From Plantibacter elymi (nom. nud.) (lineage in GTDB: Bacteria; Actinomycetota; Actinomycetes; Actinomycetales; Microbacteriaceae): a stretch of 64,000 bases of DNA. Shown piece after piece: positions 29,828 through 62,314 of this stretch. The position numbers were made by a program, and so were the translations under genes. The notes beneath the pieces were generated by a model. The model searched no databases, was not told the DNA's origin, and worked only from the letters and a program-made list of their open reading frames with translations. The stretch lies in the NCBI RefSeq assembly GCF_900177795.1, contig NZ_FXWJ01000004.1, forward strand, positions 372,001 to 436,000, given 5' to 3'. Each line of letters starts with the position of its first letter. Within the stretch, counting starts at the first letter, position 1.

Positions 29828-29843
29828 GCCCCGAACTGGGGGC
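29828..29843 (+). promoter_or_regulatory. C4-N5-G4 box upstream of giant protein 1 (box E)
   Basis: GCCCCGAACTGGGGGC is a near-palindrome 125 bases before the giant gene. It matches the shape and flanking GGGGGCA of the boxes at 48648-48686 and 62277-62314. No second box is clear here. Confidence 0.5.
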
Positions 29844-32900: not shown

Positions 32901-34077
32901 TGGCGCCTACTACTCGGTCATCACCCGTCAGGTCGGTTCCGTCGCCTACTCGGCACGCCTCTGGTACCGCGCGGCGAACGACGTCCGCCTGCAGCTGCTG
33001 TCCGGATCGACCGTGCTCGTCTCGCAGAAGATCGACGGACTGACCGCAGCCGCGGCCGACGCCCTCCACCTGCGCGCGGCCGCCGGCGCCCCGGTCGACG
33101 GCGTGACCTCGCTCAGCGCCAAGGTGTGGGCAGGGTCGGCCGCGGAACCCGCTGACTGGCAGGTGACGGCTTCGGACACCAACGCCGCACTGCAGGCACC
33201 CGGCGGCGTCGGACTGTCCGGCTATGTGTCCGGGTCGGCGACCAACGGGCCGGTGACCTTCACGGTCGGCAGCTTCGACGCGATCGCCGCCGGCGGACGC
33301 GAGGCAGCCGCCACCGCGCCTGAACCGACCGATCCCGCCGACCCGACTCCGGTCGAACCGACGGAGCCGGTGACCCCGACGGAGCCGACGACACCGGTCG
33401 AACCCACGGAGCCGACCACGCCGACCGAACCGTCGGAGCCGACCACGCCGGCCGAGCCGACACCGCTCGTCTCCGACGACTTCGCCCGCACCGTCACGAG
33501 CGGCTGGGGTGACGCGACCGTCGGCGGCACCTGGACTCTCACGGGTGGGAAGACCGGCTTCGGCGTCTCGTCGGGCCGTGGCACGATCGCGGCGACCCCG
33601 GGCGCGACCCGGACGGCGATCCTCGCTGCCACCCCCGTCGCCGCCGCGCAGACCTCCGTGACCTTCTCACTCGACCAGGCGCCGACCGGCGGTGGACAGT
33701 TCGTGTCGCTCATCGCCCGGCAGATCGGCGCGGACCGCTACGTCACCCGCGCCTGGGTCCAGGCGACCGGGGTCGTCCAGCTCCAGGTCCAGCGCAACGG
33801 CAGCACCATCAGTGCGGTGAACCTGGCCGGGACGGCGGTCACTGCGGGGACCGAGATCCATCTCGTGACGAGGACGACCGGTACGACGAGCACGACGATC
33901 GAGGCCAAGGCCTGGACCGGCGACACCGAACCCACGGCCTTCCAGCTCGCCGTGGTCGACGACACGGCGGCGCTGCAGGGCTCCGGTGTCGTCGGGGTCG
34001 GCTTCTACCTCTCCGGTTCCGCCCAGGCCGCGACCAGTGTCTCGTTCCGCGACCTCCGCGTGCTGCCGGTCGGCTAG
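29968..34077 (+). CDS. giant secreted propeller-LamG-PKD protein 1 (1369 aa)
   Basis: A GTG start 5 bases after AAAGGGGAA gives 1369 residues. The signal peptide is residues 18-46. Residues 60-455 look like a beta-propeller of six or seven blades, with repeats such as VSPDQSRLYVAGSFTKVDG. They contain a distinctive DCHGDSYSV (335-343) and HAHAC (355-359). Residues 471-566 are fibronectin-III-like; 575-800 a LamG/concanavalin fold (WVQTTTTSGGPIIG, WHHVVAVL); 810-894 a PKD domain (YAWDFGDGATG). Domain X (SDAFDRS...) fills 905-1107 and 1170-1369, split by a Pro/Thr/Glu linker. There is no sortase motif or membrane anchor. It is probably a secreted or glycan-bound surface protein and is homologous to 56760-62156. 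Confidence 0.88.
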   Translation: MGRLRTERADDPRTSLTRRWATALAGSVATAALLVGALVPATAAVADSAPVDPANPLTPTTVTADALPTPQIDGVVWDQVVAGGTVFVGGQFTTARPAGAAVGVGTVPRSNFLAYDLATGGLRTDITTSFDGQIRAMAVSPDQSRLYVAGSFTKVDGSTRYRVAAFSLPSMTLVSTFAPTVNATVESIAVTSGSVYLGGIFTSVQKTERLRGAALNATNAALQPWNPSVLGGSVKAIVVSPDGSKVVLGGGFTSIGGSTEPGLGMGAVSGDTGGILPWAANSIIRNGGTKSSVFSLSSDADSVYGVGYQHSQGGKATEGTFRMRWSDGGLDWLADCHGDSYSVQVVGDVVYTAGHAHACDNTGGFPNSDGYHRAVAFSKQSVGRVAHNTPPGGWTYGNFEGNPATQLLHWFPDMNAGTFTGLNQGPWDVTAGGDYVLYAGEFTTVNGAPQQGLARFATRAASTNAQGPQLGGSKMTPRVTAVGGGAAKVTWPSNEDRDNAVLRYDVIRDNATTAPVFTVNAASSFWDKPDLTFVDQGLTPGRSYSYRVKTTDATGNTAWGDNVSFTATDGAPIASTDLDRTVLADSPSHYWSLNEASGTTGGDWAGGGDLQLTGTTLARGQAGAESDGSGTSTAFGGDARGVTATTEPFTNRFTLEAWVQTTTTSGGPIIGASNGTALGSGNRDRLVYLGNDGRVRFGLYPGTVRTVTSTSAVNDGAWHHVVAVLGNTGQQIYIDGVLEAEDTGTVRGQDYSGYWTVGGTSLSGWPDRPSSDHLDGKLDDVAVYPRALTGAQLAAHHAVGTDGIAPEPENQAPTAAFTATGDLLTVSVDGTASTDADGTVTAYAWDFGDGATGAGATASHTYTAAGDYTVSLTVTDNDGATATATRSVTATAPVVTEPTATLFASDAFDRSATSAWGDAPTGGTWTVTGGKTAFAVSGSAATIQAPAGGTRTARLNAVSEASADVLTDVAPSVIANGGGAYYSVITRQVGSVAYSARLWYRAANDVRLQLLSGSTVLVSQKIDGLTAAAADALHLRAAAGAPVDGVTSLSAKVWAGSAAEPADWQVTASDTNAALQAPGGVGLSGYVSGSATNGPVTFTVGSFDAIAAGGREAAATAPEPTDPADPTPVEPTEPVTPTEPTTPVEPTEPTTPTEPSEPTTPAEPTPLVSDDFARTVTSGWGDATVGGTWTLTGGKTGFGVSSGRGTIAATPGATRTAILAATPVAAAQTSVTFSLDQAPTGGGQFVSLIARQIGADRYVTRAWVQATGVVQLQVQRNGSTISAVNLAGTAVTAGTEIHLVTRTTGTTSTTIEAKAWTGDTEPTAFQLAVVDDTAALQGSGVVGVGFYLSGSAQAATSVSFRDLRVLPVG

Positions 34078-35934: not shown

Positions 35935-36009
35935 TCCGGCCCCGGAGCACCAGCTCGGATCCCCCCGGACGGGTCACGGGCGTGCCGCGGGGTGGCCCGA
36001 TGTGCACGG

Positions 36010-36816: not shown

Positions 36817-36886
36817 CACCCCCAGCATTGGGGGTGAGAGCCCCCCTGGAGTGGGGGATCCGTCGATGACCCCCGCTTCATACAGT
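36817..36886 (+). promoter_or_regulatory. paired C4/G4 boxes and -10 (TACAGT) before the EPS priming gene (box A)
   Basis: Box 1 is CACCCCCAGCATTGGGGGTG (36817-36836), a perfect 8-base-arm palindrome. Box 2 is CCCCC-TGGAGT-GGGGG (36842-36857), with centres 23 bases apart. TACAGT at 36881-36886 is a probable -10, 31 bases after the box 2 centre. The boxes would therefore overlap or flank the -35. The remaining 254 bases to the first EPS gene are an untranslated leader. Confidence 0.65.
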
Positions 36887-36974
36887 GGAAAGACATCCAA
36901 GGGGGACGCTCATCTCGACCGGTAGCACCGGGCGGTCGTGGGCACACGAGCGACGTCGCGTTCTCCGCGGGCGG

Positions 36975-37057
36975 CCCGAACCGCCCTTGCGCATCGCGCA
37001 CCCGAACCGCACCCGAACCCACAAGTGGATAGCAGCCCCATGACGACGTACCCGAAC
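36975..37057 (+). repeat. four CCCGAAC repeats in the EPS leader
   Basis: CCCGAAC occurs exactly at 36975, 37001, 37012 and 37051, between the probable promoter and the start of the priming sugar transferase. It recurs in the leader at 38802-39089. Confidence 0.7.
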
Positions 37058-37140
37058 CGCCGTCGGTCCTTCCGACACACCAGCCCTCGCTCCCATGGCG
37101 CGGGAGTCCCCGAGCTCCACGCCGACCGTTCGGCCCGCGC

Positions 37141-38670
37141 ATGAGCGCGGACGTGAACGACAACCCGTTCCCGATCACCGGCCCCATCACCCTCGTGCGT
37201 CGTCGGGCGGCGTCGCTCACCGGCGAATCCAGCGTCGCGGTCAAGTCCCTGACGCAGCGCGAGTGGTCGAAGCGGTACCGCCGCCAGCTCGTCCTGACGG
37301 ACAGCCTCATCGCCCTCTTCGCCGTGTCGGCCGCCTTCGTCGTGCGATTCGGTGACGAGCCGGTCGGACCGGAGGCCCAGCAGCTCTACGTCCTGCTGTC
37401 GGGGGTCATCGTCTTCGTGTGGCTCGCCGTCCTCGCCGTCACCCGCACCCGGGACAGCCGCATCATCGGATCCGGAGTCATCGAGTACAAGCGCGTCCTG
37501 AACGCCAGCGCGTTCGCCTTCGGCATCCTCGCGATCGCCTTCCTCGTCCTGAAGATCGACATCGCCCGCGGCTATTTCATCCTCGCGCTCCCCGCCGGCA
37601 CGCTGGCACTCCTCGCCTCCCGCTGGCTGTGGCGCCGGTGGCTCCTCGGACGCCGCCGCGTCGGCGAGTACACGGCACGGACGGTCGTCGTCGGCCGGCG
37701 TGACGACGTCGCGTACGTCCTCGAACAGGTCGCGAAGCAGCACAGCATGAGCTACACCGTCGTCGGTGCGGCCGTGGTCGACGAGGAGACGGCCGAGCCG
37801 TTCTCCAGTCGTGGGACCTCCGTCCCGGTCATCGCCCATGTGGACGGGGTCGCCCAGGCCGCCGCCAACCTGACGGCCGACGCGGTCATCATCGCCGGCC
37901 CGGTCGACGGCGGCAGCGAGTACATCCGCCGCCTCGGTTGGGACCTCGAGGGGACGGCAACCGAGCTCGTCCTCGCAGCCCGACTCACCGACGTGGCCGG
38001 CCCGCGCATCCACTTCCGCCCCGTCGAGGAGCTGCCGCTCATCCACGTGGAGATCCCGCAGTTCGAGGGTGGTCACCACCTCATGAAGCGCGCGCTCGAC
38101 ATCGGCCTCACGAGCCTCGGGATGCTGCTCATCTCGCCGCTGCTGGCCCTCATCGCGCTCGCGGTCAAGCTCGACAGCCCGGGACCCGTCCTCTTCCGCC
38201 AGGAGCGCGTGGGCCGGAACGGCGAGCGGTTCACGATGTTCAAGTTCCGCTCGATGGTCACCGACGCGGAAGCCGCACTCCCCGCCCTGATGGCGCAGAG
38301 CGAGGGCAATGGCGTGCTCTTCAAGATGAAGAACGACCCCCGGGTCACGCGCGTCGGACGCATCCTGCGCAAGTACTCCCTCGACGAGTTCCCCCAGCTG
38401 TGGAACATCCTGACCGGGGACATGAGCCTCGTCGGCCCACGGCCGCCGCTGGCCAACGAGGTCGCCGAGTACGAGAAGGACGTCCACCGCCGCCTGCACA
38501 TCAAGCCGGGCCTGACCGGCATGTGGCAGGTCTCGGGGCGCTCCGACCTCACCTGGGACGAGAGCGTCCGCCTCGACCTCTACTACGTGGAGAACTGGTC
38601 CATCACGGGCGACCTGATGATCATGTGGCAGACCGTGAAGGTCGTGTTGAAACCGGTCGGCGCCTACTGA
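37141..38670 (+). CDS. polyprenyl glycosylphosphotransferase (EPS priming sugar transferase)
   Basis: It transfers a sugar-1-phosphate to undecaprenyl phosphate, the first step of EPS repeat assembly. Of 509 residues, 1-150 include about four or five transmembrane helices. Residues 175-290 are a Rossmann-like CoA-binding-type domain (VVVGRRDDVAYVLEQV). From about 315 comes the WbaP/CpsE-type catalytic domain: MKRALDIGLTSLGMLLISP, FRQERVGRNGERFTMFKFRSM, LRKYSLDEFPQLWNIL, SLVGPRPPLANEV, RLHIKPGLTGMWQVSGRS. It is first in the EPS locus, behind boxes A. Confidence 0.95.
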   Translation: MSADVNDNPFPITGPITLVRRRAASLTGESSVAVKSLTQREWSKRYRRQLVLTDSLIALFAVSAAFVVRFGDEPVGPEAQQLYVLLSGVIVFVWLAVLAVTRTRDSRIIGSGVIEYKRVLNASAFAFGILAIAFLVLKIDIARGYFILALPAGTLALLASRWLWRRWLLGRRRVGEYTARTVVVGRRDDVAYVLEQVAKQHSMSYTVVGAAVVDEETAEPFSSRGTSVPVIAHVDGVAQAAANLTADAVIIAGPVDGGSEYIRRLGWDLEGTATELVLAARLTDVAGPRIHFRPVEELPLIHVEIPQFEGGHHLMKRALDIGLTSLGMLLISPLLALIALAVKLDSPGPVLFRQERVGRNGERFTMFKFRSMVTDAEAALPALMAQSEGNGVLFKMKNDPRVTRVGRILRKYSLDEFPQLWNILTGDMSLVGPRPPLANEVAEYEKDVHRRLHIKPGLTGMWQVSGRSDLTWDESVRLDLYYVENWSITGDLMIMWQTVKVVLKPVGAY

Positions 38671-38692
38671 TGCGAGGACTTCTGTCGGTGAT

Positions 38693-38765
38693 GCCCCCAA
38701 AGCGAGGGGTGTCCTGCAAAAAGAGGACAAATCCCCTTCCAGAGGGGACAACACTTCGGTACAGT
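38693..38765 (+). promoter_or_regulatory. paired C4/G4 boxes and -10 (TACAGT) before the DUF1972 glycosyltransferase (box B)
   Basis: Box 1 is CCCCCAAAGCGAGGGGTG. Its reverse complement shares 20 contiguous bases with the box C region. Box 2 is CCCC-TTCCAGA-GGGG, centred 38 bases on. Between them GTCCT/AGGAC (38711-38728) forms another inverted repeat. CTTCGGTACAGT ends at 38765 and resembles CTTCGGTAGGAT after box C. The 475 bases between the two coding genes are otherwise leader. Confidence 0.65.
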
Positions 38766-38801
38766 CGTCATCACCACCGCGAACCGGTGGGCTTCTCGAC
38801 A

Positions 38802-39089
38802 CCCGAATCCGTCGAGGACCCGCCCGGTCAATGAAGCCCCTCGCGCGCATGCACCCGAAGCTGCGACGAGACACGCGACGCTTACCCGAGCAGACCGCGC
38901 CTCCGTCCCGTCATCTCCCGACGACGGACGCTCCGCCTGCACGCTCGCGAGCGGAAGCATCGTCGACGTGCACCGGTACCCGACCGAGCACCAGACACCC
39001 GAACACCGACGCCTGAGGCGCCGGGCACCAGCACCATCGCACCCACCCGAACCCGGTGCGGCGGTCGAACGACCATGAGAGACCCGAAC
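38802..39089 (+). repeat. CCCGAA(C/T/G) repeats in the second EPS leader
   Basis: CCCGAAC at 38998, 39046 and 39083, with variants CCCGAAT (38802) and CCCGAAG (38854), fill the long leader before the ATG at 39146. A 61-codon frame at 38831-39016 has poor codon use and no family, and is not called. Confidence 0.65.
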
Positions 39090-39145
39090 TCAGCCATGTC
39101 ACCCACCCTGCCCTCCGCCGTCCGACCACCATCGGCGTCCACCCG

Positions 39146-40414
39146 ATGAGCGCGCCGAGGCGCAAGACCGTCGCCCACGGTCGACGCCCCGACGGCACGC
39201 TCCGCATCGCGATGGTCGGGACGAGAGGCGTCCCGGCCGCCTACGGCGGCTTCGAGACCGCGGTCGAGGAGATCGGCAGCAGGCTCGCCGCCCGAGGACA
39301 CGATGTCACGGTCTACTGTCGGCGCACCGCCGCAGAGCAGCCGGCGGAGCACCTCGGGATGCGCCTCGTGCACCTGCCCGCGGTCCGCAAGAAGGTCCTC
39401 GAGACCCTCAGCCACACCGCCCTGTCGGTCCTCCACATGGCAGTCACGCGCCGCAACGACGTCGCCTTCGTCTTCAACGCCGCGAACGCCCCCTTCGTCC
39501 CCGTCATCCGGGCCAAGCGCGTGCCGACGGCCGTCCACGTCGACGGTCTCGAGTGGAAGCGCGCGAAGTGGAGCGGCTCCGGCAAGCGGTACTACCGCTG
39601 GGCCGAGGAACGTTCCGTGCGCACCGCCGACGCCCTCATCGCCGACGCGGCCGGCATCGCCGACTACTACGAGCAGCAGTTCGGCGTGCCGACGGAACTG
39701 CTCACCTACGGGGCGAAGATCCTGGAGCAGCCGCGCACGGACCTGCTGGGCTCCGGTGCGGGCGTCGAGGCCGGTGCCTTCCACCTCGTGGTCGCCCGCT
39801 TCGAGCCAGAGAACCACGTCGACCTCATCGTCGAGGGCTTCATCCGCAGCGAGGCGCGACACCCGCTCGTCGTGGTCGGCTCCGCACCCTACGGCGCCGA
39901 GCACAGCGAACGCATCGCGGCCCTGGCCGCCAGCGACCCCCGGGTGCACCTGCTCGGCGGGGTCTGGGACCAGGAGCTCCTCGATCAGCTGTACGCGGGG
40001 GCACTGACCTACGTCCACGGCCACTCGGTCGGCGGCACGAACCCGTCGTTGCTCCGCGCCATGGGTGCCGGAACCGCCGTCATCGGTTTCGACTCGGTCT
40101 TCAACCACGAGGTCGTCGGGAGCACCGGTTCCTTCTTCGCCACGGCGGACGACGTCGCGCGGCTCATCGAGCAGGCCGAGCTGGACGAGGCGGGCACGGC
40201 GGCCCTCGGAGCAGCGCTCCAGGCACGCGCCGCCGAGGTGTACCGCTGGGACGCCATCGCCGACGGCTACGAGGCGCTCGCCCTGCGCCTGGCCGACGGC
40301 GCGACCATCCACGGCACCGGACGGTTCAACCGTCTGCCGATCGACTGGAACCCGAAACCCGTCGCCGGCATCCACCCGACACGCATCACCGAGAGCACCG
40401 GAGGATTGGCATGA
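39146..40414 (+). CDS. GT4 glycosyltransferase with DUF1972 N-terminus
   Basis: A 422-residue transferase. IAMVGTRGVPAAYGGFETAVEEIGSRLAARGHDVTVYCR is the DUF1972 start found in rhamnosyltransferase-like GT4 enzymes. The C-terminal nucleotide-sugar half has HLVVARFEPENHVDLIVEGF and YVHGHSVGGTNPSLLRAMG, the GT4 donor-binding E-x7-E-like region. It adds a sugar to the lipid-linked EPS repeat; donor and acceptor are unknown. It overlaps the next gene by ATGA. The start at 39146 is preferred to one at 39056. Confidence 0.92.
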   Translation: MSAPRRKTVAHGRRPDGTLRIAMVGTRGVPAAYGGFETAVEEIGSRLAARGHDVTVYCRRTAAEQPAEHLGMRLVHLPAVRKKVLETLSHTALSVLHMAVTRRNDVAFVFNAANAPFVPVIRAKRVPTAVHVDGLEWKRAKWSGSGKRYYRWAEERSVRTADALIADAAGIADYYEQQFGVPTELLTYGAKILEQPRTDLLGSGAGVEAGAFHLVVARFEPENHVDLIVEGFIRSEARHPLVVVGSAPYGAEHSERIAALAASDPRVHLLGGVWDQELLDQLYAGALTYVHGHSVGGTNPSLLRAMGAGTAVIGFDSVFNHEVVGSTGSFFATADDVARLIEQAELDEAGTAALGAALQARAAEVYRWDAIADGYEALALRLADGATIHGTGRFNRLPIDWNPKPVAGIHPTRITESTGGLA

Positions 40415-41190
40415 CCCGAATCACTGCCGACACCCGTTCGACCACCGAGTCCTACACCGAGATCGTCGCCCGCCTCGCCGGCGCCCAGAAGAAGCGCGCA
40501 CCGGGGGCCCCTGCCTACTCCATCTACGTAAACCGCAAGGCCGGGCGGTATCTCGCCGCCGGGGCGTACAAGGTCGGACTGACCCCGAACGTCGTCACCG
40601 CGATCAGCGCGCTGTTCACCTTCGCCGGCATCGCGATGCTGGCGATCCTGCCGCCCGCCTGGTGGGTCGGTGTCGCCATCTGGCTCGCCCTCGCCATCGG
40701 GTACGCCTTCGACTCGGCCGACGGCCAGGTCGCCCGCCTGCGCGGCGGCGGCTCGGCGAGCGGCGAATGGCTGGACCACGTCGTCGACGCGACGAAGATC
40801 TCCACCCTGCACCTCGCGGTCCTCATCATGGTCTTCCGCCACTTCGACTTCACGAACCCGGCGCTGTACCTCATCCCGATGGGCTACACCGTGGTCGCCG
40901 CCGTCTCGTTCTTCGCGATGATCCTCAACGACCAGCTGAAGGCCGCCTACGGCCACAAGCCGGCCCTCGACGCCCGTCGGAGTTCGCCGATGCGCTCGCT
41001 GCTCGTCATCCCGACCGACTACGGCTTCCTCTGCATGATCTTCCTCCTCATCGGCTTCCCTCCCCTCTTCTTCGCCGCCTACACGCTAATGTTCATCGCG
41101 AACACCGGTCACCTGCTGCTCGCGTCCGTCAAGTGGTTCCGGGACATGGACCGTCTCGGTGCGGCTCCCGCCGCAGACGTCCGGAGCTGA
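40411..41190 (+). CDS. CDP-alcohol phosphatidyltransferase family protein
   Basis: A 259-residue membrane enzyme with about six helices. The complete catalytic signature DGxxARx8Gx3Dx3D is present as DGQVARLRGGGSASGEWLDHVVD, read as separate elements DG, AR, G, D, D near residues 110-132. VGLTPNVVTAISALFTFAGIA precedes it. In an EPS locus it most likely moves a phospho-alcohol from a CDP-alcohol to a glycan or lipid acceptor rather than making phospholipid. A TagD-like cytidylyltransferase at 63168-63710 could supply the CDP-alcohol. It is translationally coupled to the preceding GT4. Confidence 0.9.
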   Translation: MTRITADTRSTTESYTEIVARLAGAQKKRAPGAPAYSIYVNRKAGRYLAAGAYKVGLTPNVVTAISALFTFAGIAMLAILPPAWWVGVAIWLALAIGYAFDSADGQVARLRGGGSASGEWLDHVVDATKISTLHLAVLIMVFRHFDFTNPALYLIPMGYTVVAAVSFFAMILNDQLKAAYGHKPALDARRSSPMRSLLVIPTDYGFLCMIFLLIGFPPLFFAAYTLMFIANTGHLLLASVKWFRDMDRLGAAPAADVRS

Positions 41191-41197
41191 TCCGACG

Positions 41198-42409
41198 ATG
41201 AACGGCCTTGGGGGGTCCGGCCGGTCGACTGCAGCGTCGCCCGGACGGAGGACACTACTGCTCGCGCATCCGAGCGCGGACCTGTACGGATCCGACCGCG
41301 TGTTCCTGGAGACGGTGGAGGCGTTCGTGCGCGACGGCTCCGACGTCGTCGTGACGATGCCGGCCGACGGGCCGCTGAGTGCGCTGCTCGTCGAGCGGGG
41401 CGCGCGGGTGCACATCGTGCCGACGCTGGTGCTGCGGAAGAGTCTGCTGACCCCCCGCGGGTTCGGCGCGCTCGTATCGCAGACCGTCCGCGGGCTGCGA
41501 GCAGGAGGACGACTCCTCCGATCGGTGCAGCCGGACCTCGTGTGGACCAACACCATCACGATCCCACTGTGGACGGCACTCGCCCGTCTGCACCGCCTGC
41601 CGTCCGTCGTGCACGTCCACGAGGCGGAGGGCTCGGCGAAGCCCGTCGTCATGCGCGCCCTCGCCTTCCCCCTGCTGTTCGCGGACCGGCTGATCGCGAA
41701 CAGCCGCTACAGCGCCGAGACGCTCCAGCGCTCCTACCGTCGACTCGCCGGTCGGACGAGCGTCGTCCTGAACGGCGTACCCGGCCCCGACGCGGTGACG
41801 CAGCCCCGCGTGGACGTGCTCGACGAACTCCGCGTGCTCTTCGTCGGCCGTCTCTCACCGCGAAAGGGGCCGGACCTCGTGATCGAGGCCGTCGACGAGC
41901 TCACCCGCCGCGGTATCCGAGCGCGGGCCGACATCGTCGGCGCCGTCTACCCCGGTTACGAGTGGTTCGAGGACGAGCTGCTGGCCTCCATCGCGGAGCG
42001 TGGGCTCGAGGGCCGCGTCACGCTGCACGGATTCCAGCCGTCTCCGTGGGCCGCGCTCGCGACCAGCGACGTGCTCGTCGTGCCGTCCCGACTCGACGAG
42101 CCCTTCGGCAACACCGCGGTCGAGAGCATCCTCGCCGCCCGGCCGGTCGTGGTGAGCGACACCTCAGGGCTCCGCGAGGCGGCCGCGGGCTACCGTGCCG
42201 CGACCTTCGTGACCCCTGGGGACGCGACCGCCATCGCCGACGCCCTCGCCGAGATCCGATCGGACTGGGCCACCCGCTCCAGCGCGGCCATCGCGGATGA
42301 GCGAATCGCCGCCGACCGGCATTCCGTCCGTTCCTACCAGGACCGGATCATCGACTCCGTGGTCGGGCTCCCGATCCGGGCGCGGCGGAGCGGACGCGTC
42401 CATGTGTAG
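41198..42409 (+). CDS. GT4 family glycosyltransferase
   Basis: A 403-residue transferase from ATG 41198. The N-terminal half has LLLAHPSADLYGSDRVFLETVEAF and VWTNTITIPLWTALARLHRLPSVVHVHE. The C-terminal GT-B half has VLFVGRLSPRKGPDLVIEAVDEL and VLVVPSRLDEPFGNTAVESILAARPVVVSDTSGL, the donor-binding E-x7-E region. It is 7 bases after the CDP-alcohol enzyme, in the same operon. Confidence 0.92.
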   Translation: MNGLGGSGRSTAASPGRRTLLLAHPSADLYGSDRVFLETVEAFVRDGSDVVVTMPADGPLSALLVERGARVHIVPTLVLRKSLLTPRGFGALVSQTVRGLRAGGRLLRSVQPDLVWTNTITIPLWTALARLHRLPSVVHVHEAEGSAKPVVMRALAFPLLFADRLIANSRYSAETLQRSYRRLAGRTSVVLNGVPGPDAVTQPRVDVLDELRVLFVGRLSPRKGPDLVIEAVDELTRRGIRARADIVGAVYPGYEWFEDELLASIAERGLEGRVTLHGFQPSPWAALATSDVLVVPSRLDEPFGNTAVESILAARPVVVSDTSGLREAAAGYRAATFVTPGDATAIADALAEIRSDWATRSSAAIADERIAADRHSVRSYQDRIIDSVVGLPIRARRSGRVHV

Positions 42410-42448
42410 CGCCGACCGTCGTCCGGGCCGAGTCTCCGGTGGAGCCCG

Positions 42449-43099
42449 TCAGGCGGCGTCGCGTGAAGTCACGGCCGGCAGCGCGGCCGTGAGCGCGTCG
42501 ACGACCGCTCCGACCTGCGCGATGGTGCGGTCGTGGGCGGCCGACCCCTGCAGGTGGCCGTCGGCGATGTCGAACGGGTCTGCAGGCGTCCTACTCCGCC
42601 CGAACCGGCGGAGGCCCGTGGGCTTCCGGCTCGCGGGTGCGAACCCGCGGCGCCCGTGGATGATCGTCGCGAAGCGGTCCAACACCCCGTCGGCGTCGAC
42701 ATCGGCCTCGTCTGCGAAGCCCGGCACGGTGGCCAGTGCAGCCGCCTCGCGCAGGGTGAACGTCCGAGACCGCGCCGCCGGAGCGAGCGCGGCGATGGCC
42801 GACCGCTCGGCCGTGGAGGCGGTGAGGATGAGTGACGCGCCCTCGACGATCTCCAGCGAGATCGGCCGCGAGCGGTGCGTACCGGCGAACGCCGCGAAGC
42901 CGTCGCCGCGCTCCACCCGCCTGACCCGTTCGCAGATCTCGGAGCCGACCCTGGCCGACACCCCGGCGCTCTCGACCACGACGCCGTCGAAGCCGGCCAG
43001 ACCGCTCAACCGTCGATGCAACAGGAACTCCGCCAGCGGCGAGCGGCAGACGTTCGCCGCGCACACCAACAACAGTGTCTGGTCACGATGCTCGTCCAG
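42449..43099 (-). CDS. low-molecular-weight protein tyrosine phosphatase
   Basis: It probably dephosphorylates the tyrosine autokinase encoded divergently (Wzb/Wzc-type pair). The active-site loop CAANVCRSPLAEF has the C-x5-R of the family. The general-acid Asp is probably in ADPFDIADGHL near the C-terminus. No ATG is available. A CTG at 43099, 7 bases after GGGGAG, gives a normal N-terminus (DEHRDQTLLLVCAANV). TTG at 43174 is the longest alternative, but it would place coding sequence over the promoter region. Confidence 0.8.
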   Translation of the reverse strand: MDEHRDQTLLLVCAANVCRSPLAEFLLHRRLSGLAGFDGVVVESAGVSARVGSEICERVRRVERGDGFAAFAGTHRSRPISLEIVEGASLILTASTAERSAIAALAPAARSRTFTLREAAALATVPGFADEADVDADGVLDRFATIIHGRRGFAPASRKPTGLRRFGRSRTPADPFDIADGHLQGSAAHDRTIAQVGAVVDALTAALPAVTSRDAA

Positions 43100-43206
43100 A
43101 TCCCTGCTCCCCTCGTCCTCCCCACATGATAGTGGGACCACCGGGACGGCCGTACCGGCCCTCCCGCAGCACAACCCCGGCCCGGTGCCGGCAGAAGGGC
43201 ACTGAC

Positions 43207-44649
43207 GTGACCGTTCACGACTACCTCGGCGCGATCCGCAAGCAGTGGGCCGTCATCCTCATCCTGGCGCTCCTCGGTGCAGCGGGTGGGTACGTCTACG
43301 CCCAGTCCATGCCGAGCATGTACCGCTCGACGAGCAGTGCCTATGCCTCGGCCGCCTACGGCGAGTCCACGAGCGAACTGGTGCAGGGGTCGACCTACGT
43401 GCAGAACCTCGTGCAGTCCTACGCGCTGATCGCGAAGTCGCCCTACGTGCTGCAGCCGGTCATCAACGACCTCGACCTCGACCTGAGCGTCGCCCAGCTC
43501 GCCCGCACGGTCACGGCCGACACCCCGCTCAACACGGTCGTCGTCGACATCTCCGTGGTGAACTCCGATCCCGAGCTCGCCAGGGCGATCGCCGACGGCA
43601 TCGCCAAGTCGCTGTCGGACGCCGTCGCGAACATCTCCCCCAAGGACGCCGCGCAGGCGGCCTCGGTCCAGCTGACCATCATCTCGCCGGCCTCGGCGCC
43701 GGTGAACCCGGTCTCCCCGGACGTGCGGTTGATCACCGGCATCGGTGGCGTGATCGGCATCCTCCTCGGCCTCGCCTGGGCGGTCCTGCGCGAGTTGGTG
43801 GACACCCGGATCCGGAGCAACTCCGACATCGACCTCGTCACGGACCTGCCGCTCCTCGCCGAGATCGGCCGTACCTCGCGTGATCGTCGGATCGCCCAGG
43901 TCATCCGTTCGAGCCCGAACGGCATCACCGCCGAGGCGTTCCGATCGCTCTGCATGAGCCTGGCGTTCGCGGACGTCGACAAGCCCGTGGCCTCCATGGT
44001 GGTCACGTCGGCCCTCCCCGGTGAGGGCAAGAGCTCCGTGTCCGTCGGACTCGCCATGTCCCTCGCGGAGTCGAGCGGCAGCGTCATCCTCGTCGACGGT
44101 GACCTCAGGAACCCGTCCATCGCCGAGTACACGGGGCTCGACGGCACGGTCGGACTCACCAGCGTCCTGCTCGGCGACGCCTCCCTCGACGAGGCGGTGC
44201 AGCCCTGGGGCGTGCCAGGCCTCGACATCCTGGTCGCCGGAGCGGTCCCGCCGAACCCGAACCAGCTCCTCGCCTCGGACACGATGCGGAGCACGCTGGA
44301 CCGGTTGAAGTCCCAGTACGACTTCGTGGTCATCGACACCTCCCCGGTCATCCCGGTCACCGACCCGCTGTGGCTCGTCCACGAGACCGACGGCGCGATC
44401 GTCGTGGTCCGCGAGCGTCGCACGAAGCGTCAGCAGCTCCAGAAGGCCCTGTCGACGCTCGACTCCGTCGGCGCGCGGGTGCTCGGCGTGGTGGCCAACG
44501 ACGTCCGTCATCACGAGCGCACCACCTACTACACGGACGACGAGAACGCGCGGCCCCGGCAGAGCGCTCCCGTCCTGGGCGCGCGGCGTCGGCGACCGGT
44601 CGCGGCGACGACGACGGAGCCGACGCCCGAGACCGCGGGAGAGCGGTAA
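43207..44649 (+). CDS. polysaccharide co-polymerase / tyrosine autokinase (Wzz-BY kinase)
   Basis: A 480-residue fusion of an N-terminal Wzz domain and a BY-kinase. Transmembrane helices lie near residues 13-32 and 175-198, the second with the Pro/Gly-rich SAPVNPVSPDVRLITGIGG. The kinase has Walker A ALPGEGKSS near 270, Walker A' VILVDGDLRNPS, and Walker B FVVIDTSP. The C-terminus (HHERTTYYTDDENARP) holds two Tyr, fewer than the usual cluster. It controls EPS chain length and export. GTG start; divergent phosphatase upstream. Confidence 0.93.
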   Translation: MTVHDYLGAIRKQWAVILILALLGAAGGYVYAQSMPSMYRSTSSAYASAAYGESTSELVQGSTYVQNLVQSYALIAKSPYVLQPVINDLDLDLSVAQLARTVTADTPLNTVVVDISVVNSDPELARAIADGIAKSLSDAVANISPKDAAQAASVQLTIISPASAPVNPVSPDVRLITGIGGVIGILLGLAWAVLRELVDTRIRSNSDIDLVTDLPLLAEIGRTSRDRRIAQVIRSSPNGITAEAFRSLCMSLAFADVDKPVASMVVTSALPGEGKSSVSVGLAMSLAESSGSVILVDGDLRNPSIAEYTGLDGTVGLTSVLLGDASLDEAVQPWGVPGLDILVAGAVPPNPNQLLASDTMRSTLDRLKSQYDFVVIDTSPVIPVTDPLWLVHETDGAIVVVRERRTKRQQLQKALSTLDSVGARVLGVVANDVRHHERTTYYTDDENARPRQSAPVLGARRRRPVAATTTEPTPETAGER

Positions 44650-44654
44650 CCCCC

Positions 44655-45971
44655 GTGTCCACGACCGCCCGACACGCGCGGCCGGCGCGCCGCGGTGGAT
44701 CCGGTTCACGCGAGCCGTGGATCGATTCCGCGCGCGGGATCGCCATCATCCTCGTGGTGTTGTTCCACGCGGTGATGTATCTCGGGGTGGCCGGGATCAC
44801 CGGGCCGTGGTCATTGGCCAGCACCCCGCTCGACACCTTCCGCATGCCGCTGTTCTTCTTCGTCTCCGGGCTGCTGGCGCCGTCAGCGCTCGCACGCCCC
44901 TTCCGGGATCTGTTCCGCAAGCGCCTCCTGCTCCTCCTCTACCTGTACGTCGTGTGGAGCACCCTGGAGACCGCCTACGGCGCGGTGATGCCCCCCGTGG
45001 GCGACGCTCAGGATCCCGTCACGTGGTGGTCGTTCGCGTCGATCCTGGTCCAGCCGCATCCGAACCTCTGGTTCATCTACGCCCTCCCGATCTACTTCGT
45101 CGTGGCCTGGCTCATCCGCCGCTGGCCGCGCCTGGTGCAGCTCGCCCTCGCGGCCGCGGTCTCCGCTGCGTTCGGGACCGGGATGCTCTCCTCGCTCGGT
45201 GTGCCCTGGGAGAAGGCGGGTCGCTACTTCTTCTTCTTCCTCCTGGCGGCGCACGCCGCGCCGCTCGTCAGACGTCTGGCGCCGCGTCTCGGGCTCGTGC
45301 ACCTGCTCGTCCTGGTCGGGGTCTACGGCGGCATCGTCGTCTTCGTCCTCAGGACCCAGGCGCGTTTCGTCCCGTTCGTCCTCCTCGGAGCCGGCCTCGT
45401 GGCGACGGCGACGGGCATCGCGCTCGCCGTGGTGTTGTCCCGCTTCCGCTCCTGCTCCTTCCTAGCGGTTCTCGGCACGAGGACGCTCCCCGTCTACCTC
45501 GTTCATACGTTCCCTATGATCGCCGTAGCTGGCGTACTGCATCCGATCGCCGAGACGCTCCCGCTGTGGTGGAGAATCGTGCTCCCTCCCGCGCTCGCGG
45601 CGGCTTCCATCCTGATCTCCCTTGGGATCCACCGGCTCCTTCGGTCGGTGCCCGGCGTCTTCACCGTCCCGGTGAAGAGCTGGACGATCGCCTCAGAACC
45701 GCGTTCTCGAAACATGGACCCGTCACAGATCCTTGCTGTACCATCCGTCAACAGCACTATCGCGCCACCCGACCGAAACGGCCTGTCACGGGCCGAGTCC
45801 GCTCCATCCGACGCAGCTGAACCTCCCCCGCATCCACCCCGCGTCGACGGATCGGGCGCTCCCGATCCCCGTGAGGAACCCCTTCTTGACTTCCGACCTC
45901 CACGCAGCCGGTCCTCCCACGACCGACCGGCCAACGCTCCGATCGACGCGCCGTCGCGTCCGACCGACTGA
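44655..45971 (+). CDS. acyltransferase family 3 membrane protein
   Basis: A 438-residue integral membrane O-acyltransferase with about ten helices. The N-terminal WIDSARGIAIILVVLFHAVMYLG carries the catalytic-type His, and FRMPLFFFVSGLLAP follows, as in ExoZ/OatA relatives. It probably acetylates or otherwise acylates an EPS sugar. It begins 5 bases after the kinase stop. The last 90 or so residues are Pro/Ser-rich and low complexity. The final 101 bases overlap the next gene's start in another frame, so one of the two ends may be misplaced. Confidence 0.88.
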   Translation: MSTTARHARPARRGGSGSREPWIDSARGIAIILVVLFHAVMYLGVAGITGPWSLASTPLDTFRMPLFFFVSGLLAPSALARPFRDLFRKRLLLLLYLYVVWSTLETAYGAVMPPVGDAQDPVTWWSFASILVQPHPNLWFIYALPIYFVVAWLIRRWPRLVQLALAAAVSAAFGTGMLSSLGVPWEKAGRYFFFFLLAAHAAPLVRRLAPRLGLVHLLVLVGVYGGIVVFVLRTQARFVPFVLLGAGLVATATGIALAVVLSRFRSCSFLAVLGTRTLPVYLVHTFPMIAVAGVLHPIAETLPLWWRIVLPPALAAASILISLGIHRLLRSVPGVFTVPVKSWTIASEPRSRNMDPSQILAVPSVNSTIAPPDRNGLSRAESAPSDAAEPPPHPPRVDGSGAPDPREEPLLDFRPPRSRSSHDRPANAPIDAPSRPTD

Positions 45972-48591
45972 CCGCTCGAGCGGCATCCGCCGTGCCGGCA
46001 CCGTCCTGGCGAGCGGTCTCGCGGCCGGAGCCCTGCTCCTGACCTCGCTCACGGCCGCAGCACCGGCGAACGCCGCAGGTGAGACCTGGTCCGTCGGCAA
46101 GCCCGTCGCGAGCGACACCTTCGCGCGGACGGTCGCGACCGGATTCGGCGCGGCCGATCTCGGAGGCGACTACACCTCCGCGGTCACCACCGGGATGGCC
46201 GTCGCGAACGGCGGCAGCATCACCTTCACCACCCCGGGGACCGCCCGCCAGGCACTGCTCGCCGGTGTGCAGATCGCAGACGTCCAGGCCACCGCCACCA
46301 TCACCGTCCCAACCCTCCCCACCGCCGGGAGCGGCGTCTACTTCGGGCTGCAGGCCCGATCGGACGGCAAGCGGTACTACCAGAGCACGGTGCGCGTCAC
46401 GCCCACCGGTTCGGTCTATCTCGGCACGGCACGCATTGACGGGTCGACCACGAACCAGAAGAAGCTGTCGAAGGAGGCGCTGGTCGCATCCGGTCTCCAG
46501 CCCGGCCAATCGCTGCAGATGGACCTGCGCACCCGGTCGTCCACCACCGTCACCGTGGCCAGTCGTGCGTGGGTCGTCGGAGCGGCGAAGCCCTCCTGGC
46601 AACGGATCGCGACCGACGCGAGCGCTGAGCGGCTCCAGTCCGGCGGGATCGGCGTGTGGAGTTACCTCTCCAGCGCGGCGGCACCGCTCGGTCTCGGGAT
46701 CAGCGCCCTGAGCGCGGCCCCGGTGACCTCGTCGTCGGCCAACCCGGAACCCGAACCGACGACCCCGGTCCCCGCGCCGACCGAACCGACGGACCCCGTC
46801 GAGACCCCGGTGCCGGAACCGACTACACCAGCGACCCCGACGACCCCCACCGCTCCCGCGACGCCGACCACCCCGACCACGCCGACGGGCCCTGACACCC
46901 AGGTGCCGTCGAGCGGCCGAGGTTCGGCTGCGGTCGGGGCGACCTCGTACGCGATCCCGAAGGGCGCGTTGTACGTGACGGCAGGCAACGGCACCGGGGG
47001 CTCGGGCAGTCTCGCCTCGCCCTACACGTCACTGACGCACGCCGTCGCGAAGGCGCCGAATGGATCGACGCTGGTGCTGCGCGCCGGCACCTACCGCGAG
47101 AGCGTCGTCCTCGCGAGCTCGAAGCAGCTGACCATCCAGTCCTATCCCAAGGAAGCGGTCTGGTTGGACGGCAGTGACCGCGTCACCGGCTGGAACAAGA
47201 GTTCCACGGGCTGGGCCGTGACGGGCTGGAACACCGGCTTCGACACCAGCCCGACCTTCACCAAGGGTGCGTCGGACGGCAGTGCCGAGGCCATCAAGTT
47301 CATCAACCCCGCTTACCCGCTCGCCGCCTACCCCGACCAGGTGTGGGTCGACGGCGTCGCCCAGCAACAGGTCGCCAGTGAGCGAGCGGTGGGAACGGGC
47401 ACCTTCTTCGTCGACCGCGCCGGGAAGCGCCTCATCCTCGGTACGGACCCTGCCGGGAAGACCGTCACGGCGAGCAAGCTCCAGACGGCACTCGCCGTGA
47501 AGAGCGTCGGCAGCGTCGTGCGCGGCCTCGGTGTCCGGAACTACGGCAACTCGGTGTACCAGATGGGTGCGATCACGGCTCAGAACGACGCCATCACCTT
47601 CGAGAACCTCGTGGTGCAGGACAACGCCACGATCGGCATGTACGCGTGGGGCACCGGCGTGACCTTCGCGAACATCACCGCGACCGGCAACGGGATGATG
47701 GGCGGCGGAGCGAACTCGGCCGACAAGTTCACGCTCAAGAACTCCGTGATCTCGGGCAACAACGTGCAGAACTTCAACCGGATGCCGGTGTCCGGCGGGT
47801 TCAAGATCACGCGTTCGCGCACCGTCGCCTTCACCGACAACGACTTCCAGAAGAACACCACCGTCGGCCTCTGGCTCGACGAGTCGGTGTACAACGGGAA
47901 GGTCTCGGGGAACCGTTCCATCGGCAACGGCGCGACCGGCATCATCCTCGAGATCTCGGACACGTTCTCCGTGACGAACAACGTCATCGCCTCGAACGGG
48001 CGGTACGGCCTGTGGATCGGGAACACCGGCAACGTGCAGGTCTGGAACAACACCATCACGGGCAACTCGATGGCCGCCCTGCAGCTGACCCAGGACAAGC
48101 GTCGCCAGACGAACGTGAACTCCGCGGGCCACGACCGGCGTCAGCCGCTGCCCGACATGACGGTGCCGTGGATCATCAAGAACGTCACGGTGTCGAACAA
48201 CGTCATCTCGGGTGCCGGCGGCGGCTGCCTCGTCTGCGTGGAGGACCAGTCGAAGGAGTTCACGGCCGAGCAGATGAAGCTCACGCTGAACGGCAACGTC
48301 TACCAGCGCGCCTCCGCGAATGCCCCGTCGCTCGCGGTGCGCTGGGGACAGGGTGCAGCGACCGCGAAGAGCTTCGCGACGGTGGCCGCGTTCACGAAGG
48401 CGACCGGCCAGGAACGGCGGTCGGTCCTCGTCGAGGGCACCGCGGTCACGACGACGGGCTACCAGTTGACGCCGGCGGCCCTCGCCCAGTCGGCGCTCGT
48501 CGTGGTCGCCGTACCGAGCTCCATCGCCGGCCTGCTGGGATTGCAGGCCGGGATCGCCCCGGCGCGGGCGGGGAGCCTCCTCAGCCCCTGA
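45871..48591 (+). CDS. secreted right-handed beta-helix protein with domain X
   Basis: A 906-residue secreted protein. A long basic n-region precedes a signal segment (ASGLAAGALLLTSLTAAAPANA, about residues 45-67). Residues 79-290 are the same domain X (SDTFARTVATGFGAADLGG) as in the two giant proteins. A Pro/Thr/Glu linker follows (290-345). From about 360 a DUF1565-like start (LASPYTSLTHAVAKAPNGST, LRAGTYRESV) leads into a parallel beta-helix of many NNxI/GNxV coils. The fold suggests a polysaccharide lyase or glycan-modifying enzyme of the EPS. GTG 45871 is chosen; TTG 45886 is possible. Confidence 0.85.
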   Translation: MRNPFLTSDLHAAGPPTTDRPTLRSTRRRVRPTDRSSGIRRAGTVLASGLAAGALLLTSLTAAAPANAAGETWSVGKPVASDTFARTVATGFGAADLGGDYTSAVTTGMAVANGGSITFTTPGTARQALLAGVQIADVQATATITVPTLPTAGSGVYFGLQARSDGKRYYQSTVRVTPTGSVYLGTARIDGSTTNQKKLSKEALVASGLQPGQSLQMDLRTRSSTTVTVASRAWVVGAAKPSWQRIATDASAERLQSGGIGVWSYLSSAAAPLGLGISALSAAPVTSSSANPEPEPTTPVPAPTEPTDPVETPVPEPTTPATPTTPTAPATPTTPTTPTGPDTQVPSSGRGSAAVGATSYAIPKGALYVTAGNGTGGSGSLASPYTSLTHAVAKAPNGSTLVLRAGTYRESVVLASSKQLTIQSYPKEAVWLDGSDRVTGWNKSSTGWAVTGWNTGFDTSPTFTKGASDGSAEAIKFINPAYPLAAYPDQVWVDGVAQQQVASERAVGTGTFFVDRAGKRLILGTDPAGKTVTASKLQTALAVKSVGSVVRGLGVRNYGNSVYQMGAITAQNDAITFENLVVQDNATIGMYAWGTGVTFANITATGNGMMGGGANSADKFTLKNSVISGNNVQNFNRMPVSGGFKITRSRTVAFTDNDFQKNTTVGLWLDESVYNGKVSGNRSIGNGATGIILEISDTFSVTNNVIASNGRYGLWIGNTGNVQVWNNTITGNSMAALQLTQDKRRQTNVNSAGHDRRQPLPDMTVPWIIKNVTVSNNVISGAGGGCLVCVEDQSKEFTAEQMKLTLNGNVYQRASANAPSLAVRWGQGAATAKSFATVAAFTKATGQERRSVLVEGTAVTTTGYQLTPAALAQSALVVVAVPSSIAGLLGLQAGIAPARAGSLLSP

Positions 48592-48610
48592 TCACCCCCG
48601 GATCATGATC

Positions 48611-48642
48611 GGAACGGCGTGTGCTCCGGCACACGCCGTTCC
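48611..48642 (+). terminator. hairpin terminator after the beta-helix gene
   Basis: A perfect 14-base stem (GGAACGGCGTGTGC / GCACACGCCGTTCC) with loop TCCG lies 20 bases after the stop. There is no long T tract. It separates the upstream EPS unit from the polymerase unit. Confidence 0.8.
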
Positions 48643-48647
48643 GTCGT

Positions 48648-48716
48648 CACCCCTCGCTTTGGGGGCAACATCCCCGCGAACGGGGGAAGGCCTTCCGGGG
48701 TGCCCTTCGGTAGGAT
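48648..48716 (+). promoter_or_regulatory. paired C4/G4 boxes and -10 (TAGGAT) before the EPS polymerase gene (box C)
   Basis: Box 1 is CACCCCTCGCTTTGGGGGCA (48648-48667), identical over 20 bases to box B read inverted. Box 2 is CCCC-GCGAAC-GGGGG (48672-48686), with centres 22 bases apart. CTTCGGTAGGAT ends at 48716, with the -10 32 bases after the box 2 centre, as in A. CCCGAAT (48768) and CCCGAAC (48784) follow in the leader. Confidence 0.68.
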
Positions 48717-48851
48717 CGGATGACCGGTGGACGGATGCAGACCCGGCGCATCCCCACTCCAGGCCCTCCCGAATCGACCGACGCCCGAACGTCCTCGAAC
48801 CCTGCGGCCCCGGCGAACCGACGATCCGACCGGAGCCATGAGGGGGCGATC

Positions 48852-50207
48852 ATGACGGCACGACCGAGCATCCGAGCGACCCGCCGGACCAGCCCCACGG
48901 CCCCCGCCGAAGCGCTCGCCCCGACGGCGGCCGTGCCGACGACACCGCTCCGGCCGCACACGTGGATGGACCGGACTGCGGCGGCGACGGCCCCGGTCCT
49001 CCTCGCGATGTCGATCGACCTGCCGCAGGGCCTGAAAGTGGGCTACGTCTTCGCCCTCCTCCTCATCCCGGTGTGGCTCCCCGTCCTGGCCCGCTTCCGC
49101 GAGGCCCGCCTGTTCGGCGTCCTCGGACTCGCCGCGATCGCCATGGGAGCCGTCCTGACCGCGTTCAGCAGCGCCGGACAGTCCACCAGCCAGACCCTCC
49201 TCGCCGGGAACTCCTTCATGGTGCTGGGGCTCGTCGCCGGCACCGGTGCACTGCTCTGGGCCCGTACGGTGATCGGCGCCCCCATGGTCGCGGTCTGGTT
49301 CGGGCTCGGCATGGTGGCGGCCATCCCCCTCGGGAACGGACTCTCGAGCGTCAACGTCTGGCGCTTCGGGCTGTCCCTGCCGCTGACCGTCCTGCTCCTG
49401 GCCCTGGCATGGCGCTGGAGCTCCCGGCTCATGGAGTTCGCGGTCATCGCCGTCATCGGCGTCGTCGGCGCCCTGAACGACGCCCGTTCCGGAAGCGCGA
49501 TGCTCGTGATGACGGCGGCCCTCGTCCTCTGGCAGCTGCGTCCGTCGAGCCCGGGCGGACGCGGCTCCACGGTCCGGACACTCCTGGGCCTCGGCGTCCT
49601 CGCCGCGGCCGTGTACACCATCGCGCAGGCCGTGATCCTGGGCGGGCTGCTCGGTGAGCGGACGCAGGAACGCACCCAGGCGCAGATCGACACCTCGGGG
49701 AACCTCATCGTGGGCGGCAGGCCGGAGGCCGCCGCCACCGTCGAGCTCGTCGTGAACCGTCCGCTCGGCTACGGTTCTGGAGCGCTCCCGACCCTGTCCG
49801 ACATCCTGTCGGCGAAGACCGGCATGTCCTTCATCGGCTACCAACCGAACAACGGCTACGTCGAGCGGTACATGTTCGGCAACGGCTACGAGGTCCACTC
49901 CATGATCGGCGACCTGTGGGTGCGCTTCGGACTCCTGGGGACCGCGCTGATCGTGCTCCTGTTCGTCCTGACCTTCCGGGCCATCGGCGACGGACTCGCC
50001 CGCCGCGCGGCCAGTGCCCTCGTGGTCTGGCTCGCCATCAGGATGCTGTGGAACCTGTGCTTCAGCCCGATCGACTCGTCCATGCTCCTCACGATGCTGT
50101 TCCTCGGGGTGGCCTTCGTCCCGGTGGCGACTCGGCACCGGGCCGATCCGTCGGGGACCGTCGCGCTGCGCACCCTGCCGAGCTCCCGGTCGGCGGTGCG
50201 CCGATGA
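48852..50207 (+). CDS. O-antigen ligase / Wzy-like EPS polymerase
   Basis: A 451-residue membrane protein with about eleven helices and a hydrophilic N-terminus of 40 residues. The long extracytoplasmic loop before the last helices has NRPLGYGSGALPTLSDIL and GNGYEVHSMIGDLWVRFGLLGTALIVLLF, the G-x-G...H-N/S layout of Wzy_C/ligase proteins. It probably polymerises lipid-linked repeats at the outer membrane face. ATG at 48852, 6 bases after GAGGGGG. It overlaps the next gene by ATGA. Confidence 0.85.
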   Translation: MTARPSIRATRRTSPTAPAEALAPTAAVPTTPLRPHTWMDRTAAATAPVLLAMSIDLPQGLKVGYVFALLLIPVWLPVLARFREARLFGVLGLAAIAMGAVLTAFSSAGQSTSQTLLAGNSFMVLGLVAGTGALLWARTVIGAPMVAVWFGLGMVAAIPLGNGLSSVNVWRFGLSLPLTVLLLALAWRWSSRLMEFAVIAVIGVVGALNDARSGSAMLVMTAALVLWQLRPSSPGGRGSTVRTLLGLGVLAAAVYTIAQAVILGGLLGERTQERTQAQIDTSGNLIVGGRPEAAATVELVVNRPLGYGSGALPTLSDILSAKTGMSFIGYQPNNGYVERYMFGNGYEVHSMIGDLWVRFGLLGTALIVLLFVLTFRAIGDGLARRAASALVVWLAIRMLWNLCFSPIDSSMLLTMLFLGVAFVPVATRHRADPSGTVALRTLPSSRSAVRR

Positions 50208-51262: not shown

Positions 51263-51272
51263 GCCCGCCCGG

Positions 51273-51809: not shown

Positions 51810-51895
51810 CGATCCATCCGATCCTCGAATTCCCCGACTGCGAGCCTAGCGGCGACCGTCGGACCGCCAGTACCCCGTCTCCGGAGGCCATTCCC

Positions 51896-52960: not shown

Positions 52961-52993
52961 GCTGCACGAGCCCACCCGGCACGCGGACACCGC

Positions 52994-53977: not shown

Positions 53978-54079
53978 GTGCTCCCTCTCCGCGGCAGAGC
54001 CGTCGATCGATGACCAGACTATTGGGTGCCGGGACGTCCCCACCGCCCCCACCTCGGGCGTCGTCGCGGCGGTGTGCGC

Positions 54080-62156: not shown

Positions 62157-62276
62157 GGTGTATCTCGCAGTCTTCTCGGGTGAAGGAGTCGGACCGCTGG
62201 CACACACGTTCGGGAGACGCGGGCGGGCTGATGAGGTCCTCCACGCAGTCAAGCGCAAGATGGGGGACGACGATGC

Positions 62277-62314
62277 ACCCCGTTGGGGGCAGATGCACCC
62301 CCAGATCAGGGGTG
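62277..62314 (-). promoter_or_regulatory. paired C4/G4 boxes upstream of giant protein 2 (box D)
   Basis: On the minus strand CACCCC-TGATCTG-GGGGTG (62297-62314) is followed by TGCCCCC-AAC-GGGGTG (62277-62290), with centres about 22 bases apart. They stand 121-158 bases before the ATG. A CCCGAAC (62208-62214, minus) lies in the leader, as in EPS leaders A and B. Confidence 0.65.

Follow-up and report, generated by a model that had tools for sequence, protein, structure and literature searches.

The locus and its palindromic boxes

The window described here is a 64-kb stretch of the genome of Plantibacter elymi (G000; 4,122,483 bases in 8 contigs), located at C3:372001-436000, in which genes of exopolysaccharide (EPS) synthesis and two giant secreted-type proteins were present. 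Four paired palindromes of the type C4-N-G4 (A to D) and one single box of the same type (E) were identified in it, every one at the place given in a preliminary description of this DNA (Table 1). The centre-to-centre distance of the two boxes was 22.5 bp in A, 38.5 bp in B and 21.5 bp in both C and D. The 20 bases which had been said to be common to B1 and inverted C1 (TGCCCCCAAAGCGAGGGGTG) could be read in both sequences.

The -10-like hexamers of promoters A and C, which had been placed 31-32 bp after the second box, were also found, but this figure is the distance from the box centre (32 bp), and the hexamers stand about 24 bp after the last G of the second box. No TANNNT was found in promoter D; there TTGACT, which had been overlooked, was located at 31.5 bp. 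Counted from the nearer box centre, TACAGT (A), TAGGAT (C) and TTGACT (D) each start at 31.5-32 bp.

Table 1. Boxes, -10 hexamers and genes of the window (window positions; number of Plantibacter genomes in the remarks)
Feature	Position	Strand	Remark
Box E CCCCGAACTGGGGG, single	29829..29842	+	without clear -10 at 32 bp; kept in G002
Giant secreted-type protein E (propeller, fn3, LamG, PKD)	29968..34077	+	Pfam
Probable degenerate box before NlpC/P60 gene 34521-35837	35961..35973	-	one arm broken
Box A1 CCCCCAGCATTGGGGG	36819..36834	+	centre about -66 from inferred transcription start; one loop base varies, 7/7 genomes
Box A2 CCCCCCTGGAGTGGGGG	36841..36857	+	centre 32 bp before -10
-10 hexamer TACAGT, promoter A	36881..36886	+	identical, 7/7 genomes
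Gene A, polyprenyl-phosphate sugar transferase type (CoA_binding_3 and Bac_transf), PssY-like	37141..38670	+	Pfam
Box B1 CCCCCAAAGCGAGGGG	38694..38709	+	identical, 7/7 genomes
Palindrome TGTCCT-N8-AGGACA between B1 and B2	38710..38729	+	7/7 genomes, one arm substitution in G001
Box B2 CCCCTTCCAGAGGGG	38733..38747	+	centre 20 bp before -10; CCCC in 5/7 genomes, CTCC in G001 and G004
-10 hexamer TACAGT, promoter B	38760..38765	+	identical, 7/7 genomes
GT4 glycosyltransferase, first gene after B, then EPS cluster	39056..40414	+	Pfam
Wzz/BY-kinase-like gene, EPS cluster after B	43075-44649		Pfam
Beta-helix gene, EPS cluster after B	45733-48591		Pfam
Box C1 CCCCTCGCTTTGGGGG, equal to B1 inverted	48650..48665	+	present in 3 aligned genomes, one base different in G006
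Box C2 CCCCGCGAACGGGGG	48672..48686	+	centre 32 bp before -10
-10 hexamer TAGGAT, promoter C	48711..48716	+	TAGAAT in G002 and G006
Open reading frame (ORF) after C	48720..50207	+	no Pfam match
Giant secreted-type protein D (Rax2/DUF5122-like propeller, two LamG, four PKD)	56760..62156	-	Pfam; conserved ATG at 62156, read from genus alignment
-10-like TTGACT, promoter D	62247..62252	-	31.5 bp from proximal box centre
Box D proximal CCCCCAACGGGG	62278..62289	-	short loop
Box D distal CCCCTGATCTGGGGG	62298..62312	-	identical in 3 aligned genomes

The palindrome between B1 and B2 is perhaps a degenerate middle box. The first ATG of the ORF after C overlaps the inferred transcription start, and translation therefore probably begins at a later codon. 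The degenerate box before the NlpC/P60 gene has strict C4 and G4 arms in all six other Plantibacter genomes, unlike this genome.

Rarity in the genome and conservation in the genus

The window contained 12 distinct boxes against a mean of 5.7 (standard deviation 2.75) in 60 order-3 Markov windows, and four pairs, exactly A to D, against none in any of the 60. The strict pair, CCCC-N7-GGGG followed by a second CCCC-N7-GGGG, occurred only at A, B and C in the whole 4.12-Mb genome, with 0 for the reversed control; D escapes this pattern because the loop of its inner (proximal) box is only 3-4 bp. The earlier proposal had taken scattered copies as a sign against a regulon, and no strict pair was found elsewhere in the genome. 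A profile made from 25 box pairs (R1) gave strong matches in this genome only at A, C and D, a partly circular result with A, C and D among its 25 rows. Over seven Plantibacter genomes R1 recovered A in 7/7, and both C and D in G000, G002 and G006, while B was not recovered by this profile in the seven genomes.

A weak site F (G000:C3:357582-357624, L126:12583-12625, E 0.36) was located before a baeRF-family gene adjoining a ClpC-like gene, where a TATACT hexamer follows the weak box at about 19 bp; it was matched in four Plantibacter genomes and was not counted. A box at C7:579192 before a histidine kinase was discarded for its N9 spacing.

For comparison within the genus, A and B were aligned in this genome and six other Plantibacter genomes, C and D in G000, G002 and G006, whose clusters resemble that of the window, and E in two genomes. 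A strict pair was present at A in 6/6 of the other genomes, at B in 4/6 and at C in 2/6. In the seven genomes both A boxes were nearly invariant, as was the DNA leading from A2 to the -10, whereas variation was seen in the 7 bp that link A1 to A2 and in the sequence upstream of A. B was kept in G005 despite a different gene next to it, not the same glycosyltransferase. The EPS genes after B (window 39056-55621 compared with L033-L044) differ between Plantibacter species, and promoters A and B are retained.

Promoters of gene A in Microbacteriaceae

A profile of four gene-A proteins revealed 135 relatives, of which 80 (52-91% identity) were kept, nearly all of them from Microbacteriaceae and three from Arthrobacter or Paenarthrobacter. 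The box, searched as CCCC-N4-8-GGGG, was found in the upstream stretch (900 bases plus 60 of the match) of 60/80 loci, against 10/80 for coding and 7/80 for downstream DNA, and against 18/80 for the reversed motif upstream. The boxed loci belonged to Plantibacter, Leifsonia, Cryobacterium, Mycetocola, Labedella, Humibacter, Clavibacter and others. The boxes are thus conserved upstream of relatives both in the genus (seven genomes) and in the family; a lack of such conservation had been named as evidence against the earlier proposal.

The spacing to the -10 was determined in 77 loci after the three Plantibacter loci were dropped. A box placed 180-700 bases upstream was present in 53/77, and 40 of these 53 had TANNNT 28-36 bp from the box centre. 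In total 43 such matches were counted, compared with a mean of 6.6 and a maximum of 15 in 1000 shuffles, and 36 of the 43 stood at 31, 32 or 33 bp. The consensus of the gene-A promoters was approximately CCCCC-(C/G)AA-N-GGGGG, followed by TANNGTC about 23 bases on. Thirty gene-A promoters from other genera (11 of 41 were dropped, mostly same-genus copies) were combined into a model, which gave one match at E<=2 in 197 kb of DNA from the genome of the window, and this was C2 with its -10 (E 0.077). The model was also searched in 40 of the 80 gene-A loci, including all 20 without a strict box, and it found a promoter match in 4 of these 20.

A strict pair was present upstream in only three of the 80 loci, all of them from Plantibacter, so pairing is not the essence of the site, and what is conserved is the single box with the -10 some 32 bp downstream of it. 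The pairs described earlier are present at A to D, but pairing is not conserved beyond Plantibacter in gene-A loci. Some Cryobacterium promoters, read by eye, had a C-run with a broken partner at the position of the second box. The ancestral arrangement seems to be a single box that precedes the -10 by about 32 bp, with a second box in Plantibacter.

Paired boxes and their targets in other genera

When 398 genomes of the family were scanned, a tight pair was observed in 47/398 genomes and 24/85 genera, with some of the pair-bearing contigs being of low complexity and having as high a reversed control. Thirty-one paired promoters were picked by eye, and 26 of them from 15 genera were used after five with the same genus and target were dropped. 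L089, L092 and L122 were excluded, as were pairs that looked coding or of low complexity (e.g. L018, L021-L023, L061, L069, L077). For the rows of the 25-pair profile, six of the 31 were dropped (three near-duplicates and g34, g49b and g106). TANNNT stood 30-34 bp from the last box centre in 7/26 paired promoters, where 0.8 were expected, and the best five-base window of the offsets was reached by 0/2000 shuffles. At a period of 10.5 bp the 19 box-to-hexamer offsets tended towards complete turns of the helix (Rayleigh p about 0.005), a trend that was sought post hoc and owes most to the 32-bp class.

Among the pairs that were inspected, the targets included an initiating sugar transferase (L067/L082, L084), UDP-GlcNAc 2-epimerase (L055), GT2 (L059), propeller giants (L071/L087, L123), a 2129-aa fn3 protein (L078/L094), type IV pilus-type genes (L050, L088), a trypsin-like protease (L045), sigma-factor genes (L070/L093 with a FliD-type gene downstream, L024/L049, L120), a LAL regulator (L058/L079, L080) and a hydrolase-amidase operon in g5 (L083, L085, L086, L124). 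Homologous targets recurred across genera: giants in g1, g34 and g5, the sugar transferase in g1 and g5, pilus genes in g17 and g32, and an HSP70-like plus ECF-type target pair in g49 and g56. The relative of giant D in G160 was also boxed, with 62% identity over 1806 residues. The same site type is thus found upstream of several transcription units, which are those of A to E in the window and recurrent surface and EPS targets in other genera, and the regulon-like set proposed earlier, with a dimer-type site before EPS and giant surface-protein genes, gains support from conservation in the genus and the family.

In four g5 genomes the pair lies between the region of a DNA-ligase gene and the operon of hydrolase, 99-aa and amidase genes, and it is followed by a long, apparently shared leader. 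In g49 and g56 the pair lies between the HSP70-like and the ECF-type sigma genes (L049, L119, L120).

The boxes as probable operators of an activator

The box is symmetric with C before G and stands upstream of the -10 at a mostly fixed distance, which is the layout of a dimeric activator beside the -35. From the boxes, their spacing, their conservation and their target genes we infer that they are probably the operators of one undescribed homodimeric activator common to much of Microbacteriaceae. A dimer at the promoter-proximal box, with its centre about 32 bp upstream of the -10, would touch RNA polymerase beside the -35 in a class II-like manner, and the box centre would be at about -44 if transcription starts about 7 bp after the hexamer. 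The fixed distance of the class II type, for which a site centre near -41 to -45 is expected, was seen as the peak at 31-33 bp in gene-A promoters, with the transcription start itself deduced from the hexamer. In Plantibacter a second dimer, two helical turns upstream on the same face of the DNA, may give cooperative or tighter control. Such a unit would turn on EPS initiation together with the giant surface proteins.

Several observations weigh against an activator of this kind. B and E do not share the 32-bp spacing, and the loop between the C and G runs varies from 3 to 7, which is loose for a dimer site. Among the gene-A loci, 20/80 had no strict box, 13/53 boxed ones had no TANNNT at 28-36 bp, and the counts are inflated by shared ancestry, with many loci from Cryobacterium and Leifsonia; the model of foreign gene-A promoters listed neither A nor D in the genome of the window (E<=2). 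In 19/26 paired promoters TANNNT was elsewhere than at 30-34 bp or nowhere, and some pairs had no evident surface gene, namely L048 (DnaB/SSB surroundings), L122 (a dioxygenase ORF overlies the pair) and L081 (short-chain dehydrogenase region). Genome-wide the loose three-arm pattern barely exceeded its control (56/53 vs 47/46), and a single arm therefore carries little weight. In other families of the order the reversed control was about as frequent as the strict pair.

The boxes might instead bind a repressor, whose occupation of the DNA beside the -35 would block the polymerase. This would suit B2 and some foreign boxes, which are nearer to the -10 (at about 10 and 20 bp), so that a bound protein would get in the way of polymerase, and a repressor role is possible, above all at B. 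As a general explanation it is unlikely, since a repressor would tolerate more positions, whereas most boxed gene-A promoters have the spacing of 31-33 bp that proximal activators typically show.

It is very improbable that the boxes work at the RNA level, as leader hairpins or terminators, rather than as DNA sites. C4-N-G4 can fold, and loop lengths vary as RNA loops may; but the reversed GGGG-N-CCCC pairs, which are equally foldable, numbered 0 in all seven genus genomes, and reversed boxes were far fewer than boxes upstream of gene A. The boxes also stand upstream of the -10 and are thus probably outside the transcript. Chance runs of C and G in DNA of 70% GC, to which the loose patterns, the pairs outside the family and the many false pairs of low-complexity contigs could be ascribed, have a negligible probability for A to D and for the gene-A promoters as a group in view of the Markov, reversed-control, conservation and shuffle results, E being outside that refutation.

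No description of the C4-N-G4 operator, its promoter geometry or its target set was recognised among the listings of an open-access library, which misses most subscription papers, and no described EPS regulator of Microbacteriaceae was found there either. Regulons with dimer operators are of a known kind; this operator has an unusual reach. The box precedes the committing enzyme of EPS synthesis in a family of plant, soil and ice bacteria, and its mostly constant distance from the -10 across genera gives a handle on a possible common surface-coat switch; transcription starts can be predicted from it as well, together with surface proteins of unassigned function that would be co-regulated. A wider proposal, in which one undescribed regulator of the LuxR/NarL type acts through a C4-N-G4 operator to switch cells between a free and a surface-attached life in all of Microbacteriaceae, is tentative and somewhat doubtful. 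If it were true, the switch would cover EPS initiation, propeller/LamG/PKD adhesins, type IV pili, a flagellar-type sigma and ECF genes, and genera would swap targets and add a second box for a stronger response.

Comparison with known operators

Promoters of the NarL/FixJ family (DosR boxes, NarL 7-2-7) have dimeric CCC...GGG half-sites about one turn apart, with tandem boxes near -42 and -64, and they differ in sequence from the boxes of the window. Operators of the CsoR/RcnR type are inverted repeats of a C-tract and then a G-tract with a spacing of about 4 bp, shorter than in the boxes, and metal genes are their targets.

RamA of Corynebacterium glutamicum is a LuxR-type regulator of central carbon metabolism, with published sites A/T/C-GGGG-N and A/T/C-CCCC-N (PMC4847777). 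The likeness to the boxes consists of runs of four or more G or C, an actinobacterial host and several motifs per promoter, whereas the RamA motifs are given as single stretches and the boxes of the window are C4-N-G4 palindromes, mostly with a constant spacing to the -10. Any run of at least five fits the RamA form trivially, and several boxes read GCCCC. Since C4 and G4 runs are published sites of RamA, a regulator of the GerE type is suggested, and the site type (A/T/C-CCCC and GGGG stretches) may likewise point to a LuxR/NarL (GerE)-type protein.

Candidate regulators

In the genome of the window 25 GerE matches were found in 24 proteins, L148 and L150 belonging to the same protein. In 25 loci of about 3 kb none of the GerE genes was preceded by a strict box, a scan that is silent on L129, L133, L143 and L146 (frames reach the locus edge) and on operon members with a distant promoter; the only strict box in these loci was located just behind the L137 gene. 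Five of the neighbourhoods were viewed more widely, and three of the 24 proteins (L151, L148, L152) were profiled across genomes.

L152 is a NarL-type response regulator of 216 aa with receiver and GerE domains (G000:C6:254088-254735), which would bind the boxes when phosphorylated. Its gene lies behind a histidine-kinase-like gene and a conserved 410-aa gene, so that a HATPase gene stands two places upstream. L152 was 100% identical in 7/7 Plantibacter genomes and present with 71-75% identity in 15/15 other box-pair genomes, and it was clearly present in only 8/15 genomes without pairs (Fisher p 0.006), although both genome sets were picked by eye and 'without' means no strict pair, boxes being possible. 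Over five genera its helix-turn-helix region was more invariant than the receiver (85% vs 68%). On the other side, any well-conserved regulator would give this presence profile, several of the seven genomes lacking L152 are small, no strict box was present in its 15-kb surroundings, and it is one of only three profiled among 24. It is thus an improbable choice, though it survives as a candidate.

The MarR-family protein encoded divergently from gene A (36170-36655), which the preliminary description had put forward as a possible regulator, is very unlikely to be it. Its gene lies next to box A and shows 94-98% conservation among Plantibacter genomes, but it is missing from most box-pair genomes: relatives (E<=1e-10) were found in 4/15 non-Plantibacter box-pair genomes against 3/15 genomes without pairs, and at this threshold there was no match in G160, with its boxed giant-D relative, or in G295, with boxed gene A. 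It was recognised beside gene A in 3/80 loci, a count in which the ORF caller missed some, including Plantibacter L216. MarR is therefore rejected as a general regulator, and a local role at box A in Plantibacter is possible.

L151 (G000:C7:577047, NarL-type) was picked because a 65% relative adjoins a box pair in G054. It was rejected as the common regulator, with best matches of <=48% in G001, which is boxed and of the same genus, and 46% in G061, and with no match (E<=1e-30) in G139 or G058.

A LAL protein (AAA_16-TPR-GerE) of 903/899 aa is encoded by the gene following the box pair in g32 (G374, G400; L079/L080). It was near-full-length only in three g32 genomes, with a 34% relative in G046 and partial matches in three others; it is absent from Plantibacter and, at E<=1e-8, from 22/29 genomes searched, so it is a target or a local factor and not the general regulator.

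L148 was present in 7/7 Plantibacter and 0/30 other family genomes and was rejected as a family-wide factor. This protein of 545 aa (G000:C6:402121-403752, L148:52-1689) has two GerE helix-turn-helix domains side by side, which might in principle fit four half-sites, and its conservation across the other six Plantibacter genomes is 88-98%.

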